Source: Blastocatellia bacterium | Lineage (GTDB): Bacteria; Acidobacteriota; Blastocatellia; Chloracidobacteriales; Chloracidobacteriaceae | Reading direction: 5' to 3' | DNA: 64,000 nucleotides | NCBI GenBank assembly: GCA_019695185.1 | Contig: JAIBAN010000004.1 | Span: forward strand, 1-64,000 | In this document: positions 14,832 to 53,774 of the stretch, one piece after another | How positions within the stretch are numbered: position 1 is the first letter of the stretch | Layout of the letters: each line of letters opens with the position of its first letter | Program-made: the position numbers and the translations under genes | Notes under the pieces: generated by a model | Database searches by the model: none | What the model was told of the DNA's origin: nothing | What the model saw: only the letters and a program-made list of their open reading frames with translations

Positions 14832-15419
14832 ATGAAAACATCAAATAAAAGAGCAAACCGACGATGGTTCGTGGTTTGTTTCGTGGGGCTGGTCTTTTTT
14901 GGAGTGTGGAACGGGCCTACCGCATGGGCACAACAACCGACTGCACTCCAAAACACCCGTCCGGCTCAGGAACAACCCGACCGACCGGAGACGCCTCCGG
15001 CTGAACCCAAACAAAAACCATTGTTTGAAGCCTTTCGCCCGCAAAATTCCTACGAAGCCCGGTTGCTGGTGGCTGCACTTGGATTGTCACCTGACCAAAT
15101 GGCACGCATCCAGAACGTGTACCGGCAATATGGCCAAACCATGGTGATTGCCGCACGGGACATGCGACTCAAACGCATTGAACTGGACGAAGCCCTTTTT
15201 AGCGACGATTTTAGCGAAGCGACCGTGACCCAACGGGCCAAGGAGTTTGCCGAAGCGCAAAATCAGGTGGTGATGCTGCAAACCAAAATCCAGTCGCAAA
15301 TCCGGCAGATTCTGACCACCGAACAAGTCCACCGTTTTCTTGACTTGCGCCAGGACGGCGGCCCCCGGCAATTGGCCAAACCATTCAAGAAAGAAATGGC
15401 TCCCAATCGGAAGTTTTGA
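14832..15419 (+). CDS. Exported Spy/CpxP-like protein
   Basis: 195 aa. Signal peptide (FVVCFVGLVFFGVW ... AWAQQ), then a Pro-rich linker and an all-helical charged domain from about residue 72 (LGLSPDQMARIQNVYRQYG, QILTTEQVHRFLDLR). The LSPDQ and LTTEQ pairs mirror the LTxxQ motifs of the periplasmic Spy/CpxP/heavy-metal-sensor family. GAGGAG lies 10 nt before ATG. Probable periplasmic chaperone or stress protein; function inferred from motif only. Confidence 0.75.
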   Translation: MKTSNKRANRRWFVVCFVGLVFFGVWNGPTAWAQQPTALQNTRPAQEQPDRPETPPAEPKQKPLFEAFRPQNSYEARLLVAALGLSPDQMARIQNVYRQYGQTMVIAARDMRLKRIELDEALFSDDFSEATVTQRAKEFAEAQNQVVMLQTKIQSQIRQILTTEQVHRFLDLRQDGGPRQLAKPFKKEMAPNRKF

Positions 15420-15543
15420 GTTCCGCCTTCAGGCGGCAGTTCTGAGTTCCGCCTTCAGGCGGCAGTTTGCGGGCGGCCTTGAGGCCGCGTTGTATAAAGA
15501 GAAACCACAGCCACGTCGAAGCGGAACTCAAAACTCGAAACTC
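15418..15543. repeat. 26-bp palindrome repeat element (CCGCC-TTCA-GGCGG type)
   Basis: Palindromes at 15423-15436 and 15449-15462 (exactly 26 bp apart) and a third variant at 15473-15488 whose stem changes to GCGGCC/GGCCGC with loop TTGA. A short inverted arm (GCGGAACTCAAAACTCGAAACTC) closes the element at 15519-15543, ending at the YbjQ stop codon. Confidence 0.88.
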
Positions 15544-16000: not shown

Positions 16001-16334
16001 AGGATTTTCCAGGGAAGGTTGACAGACTTTCAGCAATTTTCGGTTTGGGTGGAGTCAGCGTTACGCCTTCAGGCGTGGGGTCTGGTAAATTCTTGAAAGA
16101 TAAAGAAAAAACTCACGCCTGAAGACGTAACTCTGGCATTAACACGATCAGGTACGGGCAGTCAGCACAAGGCCGGAGCCGAGCGGAAATGCCGGAAACA
16201 AGTTATGAGGCGGGAACAGACTGGCGTCAATGGGCAGTATGCTTGGTTGGGGTTTGAAAACGAAACCTCGGAAGATGATGGGTTCCTGTTTCAAGGGGTG
16301 ACCGGCCCCTGCATAAACCTGTTATGATTCCGGT
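16001..16334. other. Gap with a short inverted-repeat element
   Basis: At 16058-16080 and 16107-16129 two inverted arms (GTTACGCCTTCAGGCGTG and CACGCCTGAAGACGTAAC) surround a ~27 nt AT-rich core; each arm is itself close to a palindrome with a TTCA/TGAA loop, so it belongs with the other palindromic elements. The rest up to the ATG at 16335 holds no gene that I can support and no clear promoter. Confidence 0.7.
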
Positions 16335-28782: not shown

Positions 28783-28932
28783 TTCTGAGTTCCGCCTTCA
28801 GGCGGCTGTTTTGAGTCCAGCCTTGAGGTTGCCGGCTTGGTTTTTCCAAGATTTGGATGTGTTTGGATTGATAAAAGACAGCCGCCTGAAGGCGGAACTC
28901 AAAACAGCCGCCTGAAGGCGGAACTCAGAACT
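28783..28932. repeat. Palindromic inverted-repeat element (CCGCC-TTCA-GGCGG type)
   Basis: Left arm 28783-28835 with one perfect palindrome and one decayed copy (CCAGCCTTGAGGTTGCC); right arm 28877-28932 with two copies read as CCGCCTGAAGGCGG, 26 bp apart. Both arms share the GTTTTGAGT linker between palindromes. The right arm ends 1 bp before the ATG of the next gene. Confidence 0.92.
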
Positions 28933-30453: not shown

Positions 30454-30621
30454 AGTCTGGGAGTCTTGGGAGTCTTGGGAGTCTTGGGAAGTCTTGGGAG
30501 TCTTGGGAGTCTTGGGAGTCTGAAGAAGTAAACAGTGACACAATTTTTTCTTGTCACCTGTCACACCGGTCACTTGGTTTTGACTCCCAAGACTCCCAAG
30601 ACTCCCAAGACTCCCAAGACT
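30454..30621. repeat. GGGAGTCTT nonamer inverted-repeat element
   Basis: Left arm 30454-30521 (seven units, one with an extra A), right arm 30581-30621 (four units), core about 59 nt with its own TGTCACCTGTCACACCGGTCAC motif. The unit is 9 bp, unlike the 7-bp families. The right arm ends exactly at the stop codon of the methyltransferase. Confidence 0.93.
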
Positions 30622-32638: not shown

Positions 32639-33319
32639 ATGTCTTCCATTCGCCTTTTTCTTTTTGACCTGGACGGAACCCTGATTGATTCCCGCCACGA
32701 TATTATGACCGGTCTCAACTCCATGCTGGTCGAACTTGACCTGGAGCCGTTTCCCATCGCGGATGTAACCCGCTTTATTGGTGATGGAGCCCGCAAACTG
32801 GTCGAACGGGGCCTGCGGGCGCGATTGGCCGAGCCTCCCACCGAATCCGAAATTGACCAAGGGCTGGAAATTTTCAAAAAGCATTACGGACGACACCTGC
32901 TGGATACAACGGTGCCCTACCCAAATGTAGTGCGGACACTGGAACATTTCTCCCATCTGCAACTGGGAGTTGTCACCAACAAACCCTACGGTTTTTCCAA
33001 AACCATTCTGGATGGGCTGAATCTGACCCGGTTTTTTTCCGCCATTATTGGCGGCGATTCGGCTCCGGAACGAAAACCCCATCCGGCACCGGTGCTGGCG
33101 GCCCTTTCACACTGCGAGGTTGCAGCATCTGAGGCCGTCATGGTGGGGGACAGTTCCCACGACGTTCGGGCTGGGAAGGCTGCCGGAACTCTGACCTGTG
33201 GGGTGACTTACGGATTGCGTTCACGGCAGGAACTGGTTGAAATCGGCGCGGACCTGATTGTGGATGATATGGCCGAACTGATTGACTTATTCAAAACAGG
33301 ACTGAGGACTGAGGACTGA
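32639..33319 (+). CDS. gph: HAD-family phosphoglycolate phosphatase-like hydrolase
   Basis: 226 aa. HAD motif I FLFDLDGTLIDS, motif II LGVVTNKP, motif III Lys in APERKPHPAP, motif IV VGDSSHDVRAGKAAG; the cap domain lies in between. It fits the Gph subgroup, which dephosphorylates 2-phosphoglycolate, but related HAD enzymes have other substrates. The start codon directly follows a repeat arm with no ribosome site, and the C-terminal tail LRTED plus stop is encoded by a GGACTGA array. Confidence 0.85.
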   Translation: MSSIRLFLFDLDGTLIDSRHDIMTGLNSMLVELDLEPFPIADVTRFIGDGARKLVERGLRARLAEPPTESEIDQGLEIFKKHYGRHLLDTTVPYPNVVRTLEHFSHLQLGVVTNKPYGFSKTILDGLNLTRFFSAIIGGDSAPERKPHPAPVLAALSHCEVAASEAVMVGDSSHDVRAGKAAGTLTCGVTYGLRSRQELVEIGADLIVDDMAELIDLFKTGLRTED

Positions 33320-33435
33320 GGACTGAGGACTGAGTGTTGCGTTGAAGATGAACAACAGAAAAGAGACATTGGCCCAGCCTTGGGCTTGAGTACAACACTC
33401 AGTCCTCAGTCCTCAGTCCTCAGTCCTCAGTCCTG
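33299..33435. repeat. GGACTGA inverted-repeat element between convergent genes
   Basis: Left arm 33299-33334 and right arm 33398-33435, about five units each, core about 63 nt. Pairing extends outward through AAAACA. The left arm contains the HAD stop codon; the right arm ends 2 bp before the stop of the small membrane protein. Confidence 0.93.
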
Positions 33436-38204: not shown

Positions 38205-38352
38205 AAGCTTCACCTGTGCAGAACAGAAAGGGCAGGAGGTTCGGATGGTTCAACACTTTGGGCAATTTCCGGCGTGTCCGTCAACTGAAATTCCCTTCGC
38301 CAGCCAAGTTGGGTGGCATGAGACCGGGAAACAGTGATAAAGAACCGCCAAA

Positions 38353-38494
38353 GAATTGAGAATTGAGAATTGAGAATTGAGAATTGAGAATTTGTAATCC
38401 ATTAGATGAAAAACCACCTCAGAAGAGAGCCAATCCACTCTTGTTTTCTGTTTATTCTCAATTCTCAATTCTCAATTCTCAATTCTCAATTCTC
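38353..38494. repeat. GAATTGA inverted-repeat element upstream of carB
   Basis: Left arm 38353-38392 and right arm 38455-38494, each about 5.5 perfect units, core about 62 nt. The right arm ends 20 bp before the carB ATG. The 38205-38352 remainder of the gap holds nothing that I can name. Confidence 0.95.
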
Positions 38495-47165: not shown

Positions 47166-50100
47166 TCAATGTTTGACAGACTGGGAACTGAGCGCGCTGC
47201 TTTCCATTCCGACCACGGCAGTTGTTTTAGGCAGCACGATATGAAAACAGCTTCCTTTTCCCAGCCCTTCAGACTCGGCCCAAATCCGCCCGCCATGAGT
47301 TTCCACATAATGTTTGACCAGGGCGAGCCCCAATCCGGTTCCACGGGCGGAAAACTCAAACCGTCCGGAGGTATGAGTGGAAGCATCGGGGGTGGTGTAA
47401 AACAGTTCGAAAATCTGGTTCAGTTCGGTGGCTTCAATGCCGATTCCGGAATCCTGCACCGTGATGTGAACGGTTTCCTCCTCCGGGATGACGGCAATGG
47501 CAATGGTTCCCCCGTCATAAGTGAATTTGATGGCGTTTTGAATCAGGTTGAGCAAAACCAGATGAATTTTTTCCCGGTCCACCGTGACGAGCAGCGTCTC
47601 CGGTCCGGTCACGGTGATGGTTTGCCCGCGCTGTCGGCTAAAGGTGGACATTTCCTCCAGCACCTCCTGAATCACCTGAGGGAAATCGGTGGCCGTCGGA
47701 CGCAACTGCATTTTCCCTTCGTTGATTTTGAGCATTTCCAGAATATCGTTGAAGGTGGTGACCATGCGTTCAACCATCCGCCGGACCGAACCCAGTGACT
47801 GCTGCTGGACCGGGTTGAGGTCGCCCAAAAAACCGGCAGTCAGAGCCTCGGTATACCCTTTGATGACAGTCAAGGGCGTGCGCATCTCGTGCGAGGTCAC
47901 GAGCAGAAAATTGGTTTTCATCTGATTGAGTCGCTGAAGAGTGCTGCTGACTTCCTGTTCCTGCTGGTAAAGCCGTTCCAGTTCCCGGAGCGATTCGGTA
48001 ATCATCAGGTTTTTTTCTTCCAACTCATCGTTTTTGCGCCCGACTTCACCATACAGATGGGCATTTTCAATGGCTACTGCCGCCTGGTTGGCCAGCGATT
48101 CAATTAACTGACAGTCAAATTCCGTAAAAGGCTTGCGTCCGGCTCGCCGCCGCACGTCAAGCACCCCGACCACTTTACCGGTCCGGGTGACAATCGGAAC
48201 ATCCATTACGCCGTGAATTTTGTAGGTTTCCAACAAATGATGAAAGGCAATGTCCGGTGAATTCCGGGTGTCATTGACAATCATTGAAGCGGCCTGGGCG
48301 GCAACTTTCCCTGCCACGCCGGTTCCCAAAGGAAACTCCAAACACACATTTTCCCAGGCTCCGCTGTTCCAAATGCGCCGGAAAACAACTTTGCCGTCTT
48401 CAACCAGTCCGATGCCGCCGGGCTCACCTTTCACGAGCAAGGCACTTTCCGCCGCGATGTTTTGCAACACGGTTGCCAAATCAAGCTGGGAATTGATGAC
48501 CTGGACGCTGCCCAGCAACTGCCGTAAAACAGTCATCCGGCGGCGGTGCAGGGCTTCGATGGTGCGAATCCGCCATAGATAGAGCCCGGCCCCCAGCGTG
48601 ATGACTCCGCCGGTTGCCATCAACCGAAACCACCAGGTCTGCCAAAAGGGAGGCCGAATGATGAGTTCAACCACTTCGGGCCGGCTCCAGGTCCCATCCG
48701 CCGAGCAGGCTTTGACCGAAAAGACATAGTGTCCAGGTGCCAGATTGGTGTAGCGCACCGAGCGCAGCCCCGTCACCGGCGACCAGTCACGGTCAAAATT
48801 TTGCAGGAAGGAACGGTATTTGACTCCTTCCTCATTGGTGAAGGAAAGCCCTACATATTCAAAGGTGAGGTTGTTTTCATGAGAGGCCAGGGAAGGCAAA
48901 GGGACTTTGAGATTGGATTGACCAGGCAGAGCCGTGGTTGCTCCCTCGACCCGAATTGCAGTCACATGAACCGGGGGCGGGACCCCCTGGGAAAGCTCTT
49001 CCGGCAACCGACATCGGACTGCCCCTTCGGTGGTGCCCAGCCAGATGGTTCCATCGGTGCTACTGACACCACCACGGGAAATATCCTGACTGAGCAGTCC
49101 ATCCTGTACCGTGTAATTGTGAAACTGCTTCCCGTCGAAGAGTGAAATCCCCTGCGGGGTGCCAATCCAGAGTTTTCCCTGAAACCCTTTGATGGTCCGA
49201 ACTAAATTGAAAATCAGCCCGTCGGCGGTGGAATAGGTCCGTACCCCTTCGCCCTCAAAACAACAAAGACCGTTATAGGTTCCAATCCACATCCGTCCCT
49301 GTTCGTCTTCAAATCCACACAGCGCGCTTTGGTTGGGCAGGTGAGTGCTGCAATCGGTGAAACGTTCGCCGTCGTAGCGGGTCAGCCCCTGGTCGGTGCA
49401 AATCCAGAGCCGTCCGGCATGGTCAAGCACAAACCCATTAACCTGATTGTGCGCCAGCCCCTGGGCCGTCGAAAATGTGGTGCAGGTCTTTCCGTCAAAC
49501 CGGATAATTCCGGTACTTGAGGCCGCGTCACCGCCAAACCAGAGATTGCCCTGCCTGTCCTCAATGATGGCTACAATCCGGGAACGGGTTCCCAACCGGG
49601 TCAGTGGGAACTGCTCAAAGCGGCCTGCATCATAACAGGAAACACCTCTTTGGCCGCCGGTCCAGACCCGTCCTCGTTGGTCCACAAAAACGGTCCAGAG
49701 CGAATCCTCCAGCAAGCCGTCCGCTACGCCCCAGTGTTTGACCGTGCCGTTGGGAGCCAGCCGGGAAAGTCCGTTGTTGACTGAGGAAAACCAAATCCCC
49801 CCTTCCGGGTCACGACTGATGCCAGTGATGACACCATCACCAATACCGGTGCTGGCTGGGTAGTTGGCAAACATTTCACCGCGCAACCGACAGGCTCCGC
49901 CCCACCGGGAACCACACCAGATGTTCCCCTCGCGGTCCTCAAACAAAGCTGTGACAAAATTGTCCGGCAACCCGTTGGCCCGATTGAAGGTGGTAAAGAT
50001 TTCGTCTTTGAGCCGGTTGAGGCCGCCGCCAAAGGTACCGCACCAGACCCGGCCATGCCGGTCCACCAGCACGCTGCTCACGCTTTCATAACTCATTCCT

Positions 50101-50861
50101 TCAGCCACGCCGTAGTTATGAAACGTCTGCCCGTCAAACCGGCTCACACCACTTCCGGTGGCAATCCACAAGCCGCCCGCCGGGTTAATCGCCAGATGAA
50201 AAATTTCTTCGCTCGGCAGCCCGGCAGCCCGGCCATAGACCGTAAACCGCGAACCGTCAAATCGGGCCAGGCCGCCGCCGCGCAATCCGGCCCACAACGT
50301 TCCTTGAGCATCTTCCAACAGCGTCCAAACCGGCCAGGGGGGGAGGCCCTGGGCTTCGCCGTAATTGACAAAGTGTTTCCCGTCAAAACGGCTGAGGCCG
50401 CTATTCATGCCAAACCACAGGCTGCCATCGCGGGCACAGAGCCCTGAACGCCCTTCCAGGTGAGGCAACCCCTGGGCCGGGCCGTAATTGGTAAAATGCG
50501 CCCCGTCAAAGCAACTGACTCCGCCCCGTGTCACAATCCACAGATTTCCATTACGGTCAGCCGTGATGGCCCGCACCGGACCTCCCGCCAAGCCCTCAGC
50601 CAAGCTATAGTTCTGAAAATTAACCCCGTCGTACCGACAAATTCCCTGGTCCGTTCCAAACCAGAGATAGCCTTCCCGGTCCTGAAAAATGACATAGACG
50701 GAATTGTTGGGCAGTCCGGTGCTGGTTGTATAGCTTTTGAACCGATAAACCTGGGCCTGAACCGACAATCCCAGCCCCAGACACACCACCAATATCCCGG
50801 CAATGATTGCCGGAGCAGCCCGTTTCAGGAAGGAGCGCAAGCCGGGGGAGAGAAATGGCAC
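47166..50861 (-). CDS. Beta-propeller sensor histidine kinase with GAF domain
   Basis: 1231 aa from a GTG. Signal/anchor segment, then two-component-regulator propeller repeats over about 40-640 (GYLWFGTDQGICRYDG, GNIWCGSRWGGACRL, GRLWICTDQGLTRYDG), a Y_Y_Y domain (YRSFLQNFDRDWSPV), a membrane helix (about 740-760), a GAF domain (about 780-925), coiled coil, HisKA (VTSHEMRTPLTVIKGY, His at about 989) and HATPase (NLIQNAIKFTYDGG, DSGIGIEATELNQIFELFY, GTGLGLALVKHYVE). No receiver or DNA-binding domain is fused, so a separate response regulator is needed and none is adjacent. Ligand unknown. Confidence 0.94.
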   Translation of the reverse strand: MPFLSPGLRSFLKRAAPAIIAGILVVCLGLGLSVQAQVYRFKSYTTSTGLPNNSVYVIFQDREGYLWFGTDQGICRYDGVNFQNYSLAEGLAGGPVRAITADRNGNLWIVTRGGVSCFDGAHFTNYGPAQGLPHLEGRSGLCARDGSLWFGMNSGLSRFDGKHFVNYGEAQGLPPWPVWTLLEDAQGTLWAGLRGGGLARFDGSRFTVYGRAAGLPSEEIFHLAINPAGGLWIATGSGVSRFDGQTFHNYGVAEGMSYESVSSVLVDRHGRVWCGTFGGGLNRLKDEIFTTFNRANGLPDNFVTALFEDREGNIWCGSRWGGACRLRGEMFANYPASTGIGDGVITGISRDPEGGIWFSSVNNGLSRLAPNGTVKHWGVADGLLEDSLWTVFVDQRGRVWTGGQRGVSCYDAGRFEQFPLTRLGTRSRIVAIIEDRQGNLWFGGDAASSTGIIRFDGKTCTTFSTAQGLAHNQVNGFVLDHAGRLWICTDQGLTRYDGERFTDCSTHLPNQSALCGFEDEQGRMWIGTYNGLCCFEGEGVRTYSTADGLIFNLVRTIKGFQGKLWIGTPQGISLFDGKQFHNYTVQDGLLSQDISRGGVSSTDGTIWLGTTEGAVRCRLPEELSQGVPPPVHVTAIRVEGATTALPGQSNLKVPLPSLASHENNLTFEYVGLSFTNEEGVKYRSFLQNFDRDWSPVTGLRSVRYTNLAPGHYVFSVKACSADGTWSRPEVVELIIRPPFWQTWWFRLMATGGVITLGAGLYLWRIRTIEALHRRRMTVLRQLLGSVQVINSQLDLATVLQNIAAESALLVKGEPGGIGLVEDGKVVFRRIWNSGAWENVCLEFPLGTGVAGKVAAQAASMIVNDTRNSPDIAFHHLLETYKIHGVMDVPIVTRTGKVVGVLDVRRRAGRKPFTEFDCQLIESLANQAAVAIENAHLYGEVGRKNDELEEKNLMITESLRELERLYQQEQEVSSTLQRLNQMKTNFLLVTSHEMRTPLTVIKGYTEALTAGFLGDLNPVQQQSLGSVRRMVERMVTTFNDILEMLKINEGKMQLRPTATDFPQVIQEVLEEMSTFSRQRGQTITVTGPETLLVTVDREKIHLVLLNLIQNAIKFTYDGGTIAIAVIPEEETVHITVQDSGIGIEATELNQIFELFYTTPDASTHTSGRFEFSARGTGLGLALVKHYVETHGGRIWAESEGLGKGSCFHIVLPKTTAVVGMESSALSSQSVKH

Positions 50862-50887: not shown

Positions 50888-51063
50888 TTAGAGTTCCGCC
50901 TTCAGGCGGCAGTTCAGAGTTCCGCGTTTACGCGGCAGTTTGGAGTTCCGCCTTCAGGCGGCAGTTTGGAGTTCCGCGTTTACGCGGCAGCTTTTGGATT
51001 TCCAAATCCGGCAGACATCGAATTCATTCCGCAAGCAGCCGCCTGAAGGCGGAACTCTGAACC
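50888..51063. repeat. Alternating 26-bp palindrome repeat element
   Basis: Four palindromes at exact 26-bp spacing: 50896-50909 (CCGCC-TTCA-GGCGG), 50922-50935 (CCGCG-TTTA-CGCGG), 50948-50961 and 50974-50987, in order A-B-A-B. The A-to-B differences keep every stem pair. A single inverted copy (CCGCCTGAAGGCGG) closes the element near 51038-51063. It lies between two same-strand genes. Confidence 0.95.
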
Positions 51064-51075
51064 CCTGCCATCGGA

Positions 51076-52281
51076 CTACTTCAAGAGATTTTTTGCCATT
51101 TCGAGGTCACGGTCCAGATTGCGGCGGACATCCGCCAGGGAAAGGGCCACTGGCTCGTCAGGCTGGACACCGTGGCCTTCGAGCCGGTTTTTTCCGGCTG
51201 TCGCATAGTCCCGGATACTTAACTGGAGTCTGCCACCGTCGGGCAGTTCTTCTTCGATACTGGCCAGGACCGCACCGGCGGAACGGCGTCCGACAATTTT
51301 GCCCCGGCCTGATTCCTGTATCGCCGAAGCCAGCATTTCAGCGGCACTGGCGCTTTCGCCATCAATTAAAACCGCCACATTTCCCTGGTATGCCCGGCTG
51401 CCACGTCCTGGCACCCGTAACCGGACCTGTTTTCCGCTCCGTTGGGCGAATTCCCCAAAGACCGTGTCTTTCTGATAAAAACACGACAGGCATTCCACCA
51501 GCACATCCAATAAACCGCCGCTGTTGCCCCGTAGGTCAATAATGATGGCAGGAGCCTGGCGATGCTGGTCCACCCGTTCGGTAAACCATTTGCCGGTTTC
51601 CGGGCCAAATTCACCAAATCGGATATAGGCAATCCCGCCCTCCAGAGAAAGTGTTTTCTGCTCCGGGGTGAGGGCATAGGGGCGGCAAATGACCTGAATT
51701 TTTTTCACTTGGTCCTGCACGTCCAGAAATTTAAGTCGCACGGATTGTCCATCCTGGGCCAGAAAAGGCTTGTTCAGGTCCACCGGCTCGTCATCCCGTT
51801 CAGTCAGAATCCAGCCCGGTTTGATACCGGCATCCATGGCCGCCGACCCGCCTATGACTCTGGTCACCACCAATTGATTTTCAATCGGGCGAAAGGAAAA
51901 ACCGATGCCAACCCGCGCCCGGCGCTTTTCGTCACGGACCAGTTCGGGTGACTGCGCGAAGGTATGCCGGTCATCCAGGTCACCCAGCATGCGATTGATG
52001 ATGCGATAGAGCTCAGTCTCATCAACTGCAGCGGCAGCCTGGGGGCGGAACTGCGCCCGGTGTTCCGGCCATTGCACCCGGTTGAATTTCGGGTCGTAAT
52101 ATTTTTCATTCACCAAACGCCAGACCGTATCAAAAACCTTGAGGTTGTGCTGGGTGCGCACCGAGGCACCTGCCAAACCGCGTTGCGTTTTTTGGGCAAA
52201 AACAGTCGAATAGGTTGTCAGGGCCATCTGCCCGGACAACAGGCAGAAGGTCAGAAAGATGGGAAACCAGTTTTTTCGCAT
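51076..52281 (-). CDS. S41-family C-terminal processing peptidase with PDZ domain
   Basis: 401 aa from ATG 52281. Signal peptide (FLTFCLLSGQMALTTYSTVFAQ), an N-terminal helical region (LGDLDDRHTFA), a PDZ domain (about 130-185; VTRVIGGSAAMDAGIKPGWI) and the S41 core: IIIDLRGNSGGLLDVL, the nucleophile Ser in DGESASAAEM and Lys in GRGKIVGRRSAG. These proteases trim or degrade periplasmic proteins from tail residues. It is divergent from the MFS gene, 74 bp apart. Confidence 0.93.
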   Translation of the reverse strand: MRKNWFPIFLTFCLLSGQMALTTYSTVFAQKTQRGLAGASVRTQHNLKVFDTVWRLVNEKYYDPKFNRVQWPEHRAQFRPQAAAAVDETELYRIINRMLGDLDDRHTFAQSPELVRDEKRRARVGIGFSFRPIENQLVVTRVIGGSAAMDAGIKPGWILTERDDEPVDLNKPFLAQDGQSVRLKFLDVQDQVKKIQVICRPYALTPEQKTLSLEGGIAYIRFGEFGPETGKWFTERVDQHRQAPAIIIDLRGNSGGLLDVLVECLSCFYQKDTVFGEFAQRSGKQVRLRVPGRGSRAYQGNVAVLIDGESASAAEMLASAIQESGRGKIVGRRSAGAVLASIEEELPDGGRLQLSIRDYATAGKNRLEGHGVQPDEPVALSLADVRRNLDRDLEMAKNLLK

Positions 52282-52355
52282 AGCTTTTTCGAAATGTTTG
52301 ACGGTCTCAAACCGGATTAAGCGAGGTTTGGGAGATTTTTCTATGTGCTTGAAAT

Positions 52356-53630
52356 ATGTCAAAAAGTCAAAACAAAAACGAAGTTGAGCCAGAGTCCGTA
52401 CCTGACATGCCCCCAACTTTTCCGCACGACCCCTATGGGGCGTTGCGGTCCCGCAATTTCCGGTTCTATCTGATTGGAAATATCATTGCCTCGATGGGAA
52501 CCCAGATGCAAAGTGTTGCCATTGGCTGGGAACTCTATGAACGCACCGGCAAGGCCATGGCGCTGGGGTTGGTTGGATTGGTGCAAATCCTGCCGATTCT
52601 GGCCTTTACCTTGATTGCCGGACATGTTGCCGACCGCTATGACCGGCGGCGGGTGATTGTTGCCGGTCAATTGCTGGTGGCAGCGGCTTCGGTGGGGTTG
52701 GCCCTGCTTTCCTCCCGCCAGGGCGACATCCGCCTGATGTATGGCTGTCTCTTTCTGATTGGAACCGCACGGGCGTTTGTCTTTCCAGCCAAATCGTCGT
52801 TGCTGCCGACCATTCTGTCAAAGGAACATTTTTCCAACGCTGTTACCTGGAACAGCACCGGGTTTGAACTGGCTTCGATTGGGGGACCGGCTGTGGGCGG
52901 GGTGTTGATTGCCCTGATTGCCAACCCGGCGGTGATTTATGCCCTCAATGCCTGCGCTGCCACGCTGTTTGCAGCCTTGACCGCCGCCATTTTGGTGGAG
53001 CGGGTGGTGGTTTCCAGGAAAGGAGTGGACGTTTCGACGCTGGTGGCCGGGTTCCGTTATGTGTGGAACACGAAGCCGATACTGGCTTCGATTACGCTCG
53101 ACATGTTTGCGGTCTTGTTTGGCGGAGCAACGGCATTATTGCCCATTTTCGCCAAGGACATTTTGCGGGTTGGCCCGGCTGGTTTGGGGTGGATGCTGGC
53201 GGCTCCTTCCATCGGGGCCTTTACCATGGCTTTTATCCAGGCTCACCTGCCACCCAAGCAGAACGCTGGCCGAAGCCTGCTGCTGACAGTGGCCGGATTT
53301 GGTGCGGCCACGATTGTGTTTGGCTTATCCAGTTCCTATTGGCTTTCACTGGCCATGCTTTTTTTGACGGGCGTGTTTGACAATGTGAGCGTGGTAATTC
53401 GGATGACCCTGGTGCAAACGCTCACGCCGGACGACATGCGCGGACGGGTTTCCGCCGTCAACAGCCTCTTTATCGGGACTTCCAACGAACTGGGCGGGTT
53501 TGAGTCCGGTACCGTGGCGGCCCTCCTTGGACCTGTTTTCTCAGTTGTCAGCGGTGGAATCGGCACGCTGGTTGTTGTGGCTGCTGTGGCTGCAATCTGG
53601 CCACAAATCCGGACGCTCAAAAAGCTGTAA
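52356..53630 (+). CDS. MFS exporter of the EntS-like (MFS_3) group
   Basis: 424 aa with 12 membrane segments. The A motif between helices 2 and 3 is GHVADRYDRRRVIV, typical of the family, and LRSRNFRFYLIGNIIASMGTQMQSVAIGWELYERT matches the EntS-like N-terminus. Such proteins export siderophores or other small molecules; the cargo here is unknown. The stop TAA is followed at once by a GGACTGA array. Confidence 0.9.
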   Translation: MSKSQNKNEVEPESVPDMPPTFPHDPYGALRSRNFRFYLIGNIIASMGTQMQSVAIGWELYERTGKAMALGLVGLVQILPILAFTLIAGHVADRYDRRRVIVAGQLLVAAASVGLALLSSRQGDIRLMYGCLFLIGTARAFVFPAKSSLLPTILSKEHFSNAVTWNSTGFELASIGGPAVGGVLIALIANPAVIYALNACAATLFAALTAAILVERVVVSRKGVDVSTLVAGFRYVWNTKPILASITLDMFAVLFGGATALLPIFAKDILRVGPAGLGWMLAAPSIGAFTMAFIQAHLPPKQNAGRSLLLTVAGFGAATIVFGLSSSYWLSLAMLFLTGVFDNVSVVIRMTLVQTLTPDDMRGRVSAVNSLFIGTSNELGGFESGTVAALLGPVFSVVSGGIGTLVVVAAVAAIWPQIRTLKKL

Positions 53631-53634
53631 AACA

Positions 53635-53774
53635 GGACTGAGGACTGAGGACTGAGGACTGAGCCTTTCTCAGGTTCCGAGGTTTCCCTTGCTGTCCATT
53701 GAAACCAAATGTCTTGCAGGATTCGATGTTCGGTTTGGATTCAACTCAGTCCTCAGTCCTCAGTCCTCAGTCCT
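53635..53774. repeat. GGACTGA inverted-repeat element between convergent genes
   Basis: Left arm 53635-53663 and right arm 53744-53774, four units each, core about 80 nt with an inner CCGAGG...GATTCG region. The AAAACAGGACTGAGG boundary is the same as at the 33.3 kb element. Confidence 0.93.

Follow-up and report, generated by a model that had tools for sequence, protein, structure and literature searches.

The small hairpins described here have their closest described counterparts in REP elements and the nucleases that act on them. In REPtron Mb of Marinomonas sp. MWYL1 (group 3 TnpA_REP / REP_Mb), the substrate of TnpA_Mb consists of the tag GTAG, two bases and a 5-bp perfect stem with a TTTA loop (PMC8266576). 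Within this loop T12, T13 and A15 (positions 1, 2 and 4) are required, while position 14 (loop position 3) can vary freely; cleavage is severely impaired by mismatches in the stem and little affected by stem swaps; and the CT cleavage site is chosen by the final two bases of the tag (PMC8266576). GTAG families are known in PVC bacteria, and a REP with a 5-bp stem has been described in Thauera (PMC3733652).

The locus studied here lies in a 64-kb stretch of a Blastocatellia bacterium genome (contig JAIBAN010000004.1, positions 1 to 64,000), the whole of which is called the window below. The locus and its neighbours are as follows.

47166..50861, minus strand: Reg_prop/GAF histidine kinase gene, downstream; the REP locus lies 5' of the gene
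50891..50909, plus strand: REP unit 1, type A; tag GAGTT and hairpin CCGCC-TTCA-GGCGG (hairpin 50896-50909)
50917..50935, plus strand: REP unit 2, type B; GAGTT and CCGCG-TTTA-CGCGG (hairpin 50922-50935)
50943..50961, plus strand: REP unit 3, type A; GAGTT and CCGCC-TTCA-GGCGG (hairpin 50948-50961)
50969..50987, plus strand: REP unit 4, type B; GAGTT and CCGCG-TTTA-CGCGG (hairpin 50974-50987)
50988..51038, no strand: spacer separating both arms; its sequence is not common to other loci
51039..51057, minus strand: inverted REP unit, type A, the right arm of the REPIN-like locus (hairpin 51039-51052)
51076..52416, minus strand: S41/tricorn-type peptidase gene, upstream; stop codon ~20 bp from the right arm

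An earlier sequence-only reading had reported four palindromes of alternating type at an exact 26-bp period at 50896-50987; this is borne out, the order being ABAB. A fifth copy of the hairpin, at 51039-51052, was absent from that reading, and since it is inverted, the locus forms an inverted pair of REPIN-like layout in which the left arm is tandem. The TTNA loop is also readable as a 2-nt loop closed by a T.A pair (CCGCCT-TC-AGGCGG). The 22-mer unit has nine matches (at most three mismatches) within the window and none in shuffled sequence. Elsewhere in the window we recorded:

15418..15462, plus strand: two type A units, 26-bp period
16058..16133, no single strand: decayed REPIN of the ACGCC stem type; left tag GCGTT, right ACGTC-TTCA-GGCGT
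28787..28926, no single strand: second inverted locus; one plus-strand unit (28787-28805) and two minus-strand units (28882-28900, 28908-28926)
28813-28831: degenerate CAGCC-TTGA-GGTTG unit inside the preceding locus

Two further hairpins had been offered as variants of the same design. That at 16.06 kb (ACGCC-TTCA-GGCGT) is one arm of the decayed REPIN, with its tag GCGTT at 16058, while in its partner, at 16115-16133, one position of the stem is unpaired (ACGTC/GGCGT). The hairpin at 15.48 kb (GCGGCC-TTGA-GGCCGC) carries no GAGT tag and does not clearly qualify as a unit.

The source genome (8.33 Mb, 222 contigs) holds 385 exact type A hairpins, CCGCCTTCAGGCGG, as compared with none for the reversed control, and the units share the multicopy, extragenic and palindromic character of REP elements. 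Their arrangement was assessed in a 1.23-Mb sample, in the choice of which contigs with REP or Y1 matches were partly favoured. In this sample two-armed loci always run plus array, spacer, minus array, with the tags outermost as in REPINs, and never in the reverse order; arms hold 1–7 units, and certain loci are one-armed. Twenty-nine of 30 loci are intergenic, and on the stop-codon side the arms start a few bp past the stop codon (median ~2 bp in 18 cases, with genes called by our own heuristic). Matches to GAGTT-N5-TTNA-N5 are distributed bimodally, with 92 fully paired, eight carrying one mismatch and the remainder background. Variation within this genome is almost wholly type A versus type B, and distinct mismatched types are at least as many as distinct paired types; covariation inside the source genome alone is weaker evidence and not decisive. 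A mobile element with common internal sequence was rejected as an explanation of the loci, the spacers of REP and heptamer loci (the latter described below) being non-homologous (five weak matches among 88).

A gene for a RAYT, the type of HUH nuclease that the sequence-only reading had proposed might be found elsewhere in the genome, lies between arrays of exactly these units. It came to light with the RAYT-like protein of an Acidobacteria MAG (locus L114), whose gene lies between such units, as query. The RAYT gene L185 (C213:46585-47139), on another contig than the window, is placed between three plus-strand and five minus-strand units of type A, among which CCGCC-TTTA also occurs. A second, L186 (on C35), 59% identical to L185, is flanked by two units on either side of the form GAGTT-CAAGC-TTYA-GCTTG, in which tag and loop are those of the L185 units and the stem is different; the CAAGC unit is present in seven exact copies only. 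The genome thus has two diverged paralogues, one of each, and at each its own stem type, as expected of low-copy genes flanked by their own REPs. A third RAYT-like gene, L019 (C86:160868-161095), has its own REP, GGCGGCGAC-AA-GTCGCCGCC, of which a paired stem variant, GCGGTGAC-AA-GTCACCGC, is also present. L019 is the sole clear RAYT among the PF01797 matches, and was rejected as the cognate enzyme since its REP differs; the same difference had led us to suspect that the cognate RAYT was lost, an idea dropped once L185 and L186 were found.

Both proteins lie below current family thresholds. A PF01797 search of the genome returned 11 IS200/RAYT-like matches, L185 and L186 not among them, and their Pfam Y1_Tnp scores are 19.6 and 14.2 against a cut-off of 23 bits. 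NCBIfam REP_Tyr_transpos is the best family match for both, at 66.0 and 73.9 bits against a cut-off of 80, which is set by the database and does not itself define the class biologically. Current family models therefore miss or under-score this clade, and Pfam Y1_Tnp-based surveys will undercount it. Nevertheless, across 22 sequences H87, H89 and Y147 are invariant, as in a single-tyrosine (Y1) HUH enzyme; the proteins carry NHYH and Y-x-x-x-N, and Y147 and N151 of the Y---NP class 2 signature are likewise invariant; L185 and L186 also have P152, a position at which some relatives carry A, R or S. A profile search against the PDB gave E. coli TnpAREP (4er8) as top match (E=4e-7), and the same structure was the top fold match of the AlphaFold model (mean pLDDT 84; E=2.5e-8).

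The exact 20-mer of the unit is present in many phyla. In 25 of 40 genomes carrying it, no such RAYT was found at the thresholds used, and none of the L185/L186 type was found in plasmids or viral contigs. One member of the family (G009) has 45 type A hairpin copies, and a search at E<=1e-30 gave no RAYT of this clade there; loss of the RAYT after spread of the hairpin is possible. The RAYT tree has few well supported branches; stems follow clades in part, and CCGCC recurs. Three genomes among the fetched loci have two RAYTs, and in each of these genomes the tag or stem differs from one RAYT to the other.

That the two sides of the stem change together around a fixed TTNA loop had been claimed from about four examples, and we assessed it on two larger sets. 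The first comprised units near 26 RAYT loci, collected on tag and loop alone before their pairing was scored; 113 of 131 were fully paired, 12 had one unpaired position and six were background. Among the 46 distinct units with at least three of five positions paired, 97.4% of cells were paired, as compared with 58.8% after shuffling, two-sided changes occurred at all five base pairs, and the covariation score was 0.874 against 0.190 for shuffles; the rows are related, so that shuffles overstate significance, and a slid-partner control (score <=0.18) agrees. Given tag and stem, the loop was TTYA in 109/115; given loop and stem, the tag was GAGT in 111/127. The second set, from Verrucomicrobiota, had no part in building the hypothesis; the RAYT was present in 36 of 388 genomes. 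Here 98 of 114 TAGT-tagged units were fully paired, a count to which the Acidobacteriota locus L193 contributes four units, and 14 had one unpaired position; the score was 0.653 versus 0.132 shuffled (45 distinct units with at least four of five positions paired). About 14–18 different stems occur among the perfect units of each set. Paired change around a constant loop is thus upheld on 46 and 45 distinct units, and mismatches are far from being as common as paired changes. Stem covariation with tag and loop fixed extends over three or more phyla.

The anatomy of the unit is a tag NGAGTN, a 5-bp perfect stem and a TTYA loop. The tag in the source genome, NGAG, falls outside the GT[AG]G super-family. 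Of 29 Verrucomicrobiota loci, 16 have the canonical GTAG, as does L193; since the Verrucomicrobiota tag is mostly GTAG-T-N, the NGAG-T-N of the source genome is a shifted form of the canonical tag.

We consider it very probable that the hairpins are REP elements, REPIN-like in arrangement, which are not autonomous and serve as substrate for a RAYT whose gene lies on another contig; RAYTs (TnpA_REP) are single-strand endonucleases of the Y1 HUH type. The rules established for TnpA_Mb predict a fixed TTNA, a covarying stem, and a tag in which AG is fixed and the first bases vary, all of which is observed, and the units are therefore taken as substrates of the local RAYTs. By analogy with the biochemistry of TnpA_Mb and TnpA_Ec, the unit would fold on single-stranded (lagging-strand) DNA; the RAYT would read loop T1, T2 and A4, with tag A3G4 as guide, and is predicted to cleave at CT. 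Any perfect stem would then serve structurally, letting stems drift in pairs, and units would spread by cutting and rejoining, while the 26-bp tandem arms may grow via the RAYT or by replication slippage, either of which may apply. On this basis we infer cleavage and mobility of the units in the source organism.

The view that the small hairpin itself matters, recognised by a REP-type nuclease, is strengthened by the RAYT between unit arrays and by the strong covariation in the large set. Whether it acts as RNA or DNA had been left undecided; the RAYT link shifts the balance toward DNA, although effects on mRNA are possible as well. An RNA role, in which selection acts on the hairpins as transcript-end or mRNA-stability structures between genes and the RAYT link is incidental, we regard as very unlikely. 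The intergenic position of 29 of the 30 loci, the few bp between arms and stop codons, and the strong folding of the whole locus as RNA (z = -8) would all suit such a role. It does not account for a unit that brackets the RAYT gene and changes stem with the RAYT paralogue, nor would an RNA hairpin need a conserved one-strand tag 5' of the stem; a terminator scan showed no terminator-like tract at the hairpins, an Rfam scan of the window gave no match, and G.U cells (8) are hardly commoner than plain mismatches (6) among 230.

Paired changes might instead stem from mutation, without selection on the hairpin, through quasipalindrome correction by template switching, which likewise alters both arms together. 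Most of the variation within the source genome is indeed a single inherited A/B change, as such an origin would allow; nevertheless, this mechanism would not preserve a TTYA loop, 1-nt gap and tag while stems changed dozens of times across several phyla, nor would it tie stems to RAYT paralogues. We find it scarcely plausible. The idea that the units are the ends of IS200/IS605 elements draws on the several IS200-type TnpA genes in the genome, yet those genes carry other hairpins and lack these units, which are found only beside the RAYT recovered with the L114 query. Unlike an IS200/IS605 TnpA gene, which has its own LE/RE and is mobile in several near-identical copies, the RAYT paralogues are ~59% identical and present once each, and we consider this origin practically untenable.

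Arrays of a different kind share the inverted layout. Exact heptamer arrays (GGACTGA, GAGAATT, CAGGGTT, GAGTTTT) form inverted pairs around unrelated 34–141 bp spacers directly at stop codons, with examples in the window at 33298-33434, 38352-38494 and 53634-53774. Arrays of at least three units number 291 in 1.23 Mb, with 70 inverted pairs, and among periods between 4 and 15 that of 7 far exceeds every other. The source genome has 660 matches to the GGACTGA array pattern; 57 further genomes of this class have next to none. The inverted-array design also occurs in a 9-bp version, at 30454-30621, a AGTCTTGGG array standing opposite a GACTCCCAA array. The heptamer arrays resemble the TAACTGA arrays of Beggiatoaceae (PMC4679880), except that the latter are direct and those of the source genome inverted. 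As a speculation that we think improbable, the RAYT lineage may have changed its guide from GTAG to NGAG and let stems diversify freely, each paralogue addressing its own REPs by stem and tag, and in the source genome the heptamer arrays, paired in inverted fashion around intergenic spacers, may have arisen through the same process.

In conclusion, the system is a RAYT/REP pair and hence not a new kind. No description of these units or of this RAYT clade was found in the open literature searched, subscription literature lying outside the search, nor did the text of PMC3733652 yield an NGAG tag. As far as could be seen, the apparently new features are the clade itself, which scores below family cut-offs, the tag NGAG, tandem arms in which stem types alternate, and the wide natural covariation. 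The units amount to a natural mutagenesis of a REP hairpin, with dozens of stems, one loop and one tag position in several phyla. Their position-by-position match to SELEX and cleavage data of one marine enzyme suggests that the TTNA rule is general, and the shift from GTAG to NGAG within one RAYT clade makes guide-directed choice of the cleavage site directly testable.

Compared with known systems, the units are like REPtron Mb in their 5-bp perfect stem, the 2 nt between tag and stem, and the TTNA loop (PMC8266576); the tag there is GTAG, which most Verrucomicrobiota relatives share, whereas the source genome has NGAG, and the proteins here have NHYH and W[HY] where group 3/subclass 2.5 has DH[LF]H and WQ. 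Judged by the published motif table, the proteins resemble TnpA_REP subclass 2.8 (PMC6006769) in several features: ~199 aa, NHYH, W[YH], a Y-x-H-x-NP-type motif and a proline-rich N-terminus. Subclass 2.8, however, has been reported from Cyanobacteria with long GT[AG]G REPs, while the present clade, whose REPs are of the short, 5-bp kind, occurs in Acidobacteriota, Verrucomicrobiota and Planctomycetota. Tag, palindrome and clustering are shared with the GTAG-tagged REP families (PMC3733652). E. coli TnpA_REP (4er8) is the nearest solved protein structure, and in the E. coli REP/BIME system REP types are likewise mixed per locus, but E. coli REPs are long and bulged with a GTAG tag, unlike the units here. 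Finally, the loci resemble the REPINs of Pseudomonas fluorescens SBW25 (PMC3116915) in being intergenic inverted REP doublets around a less conserved spacer, with one REPIN type per RAYT; they differ in that the arms are often tandem arrays, with a period of 25–33 bp depending on the genome, and in that two stem types alternate in the source genome.
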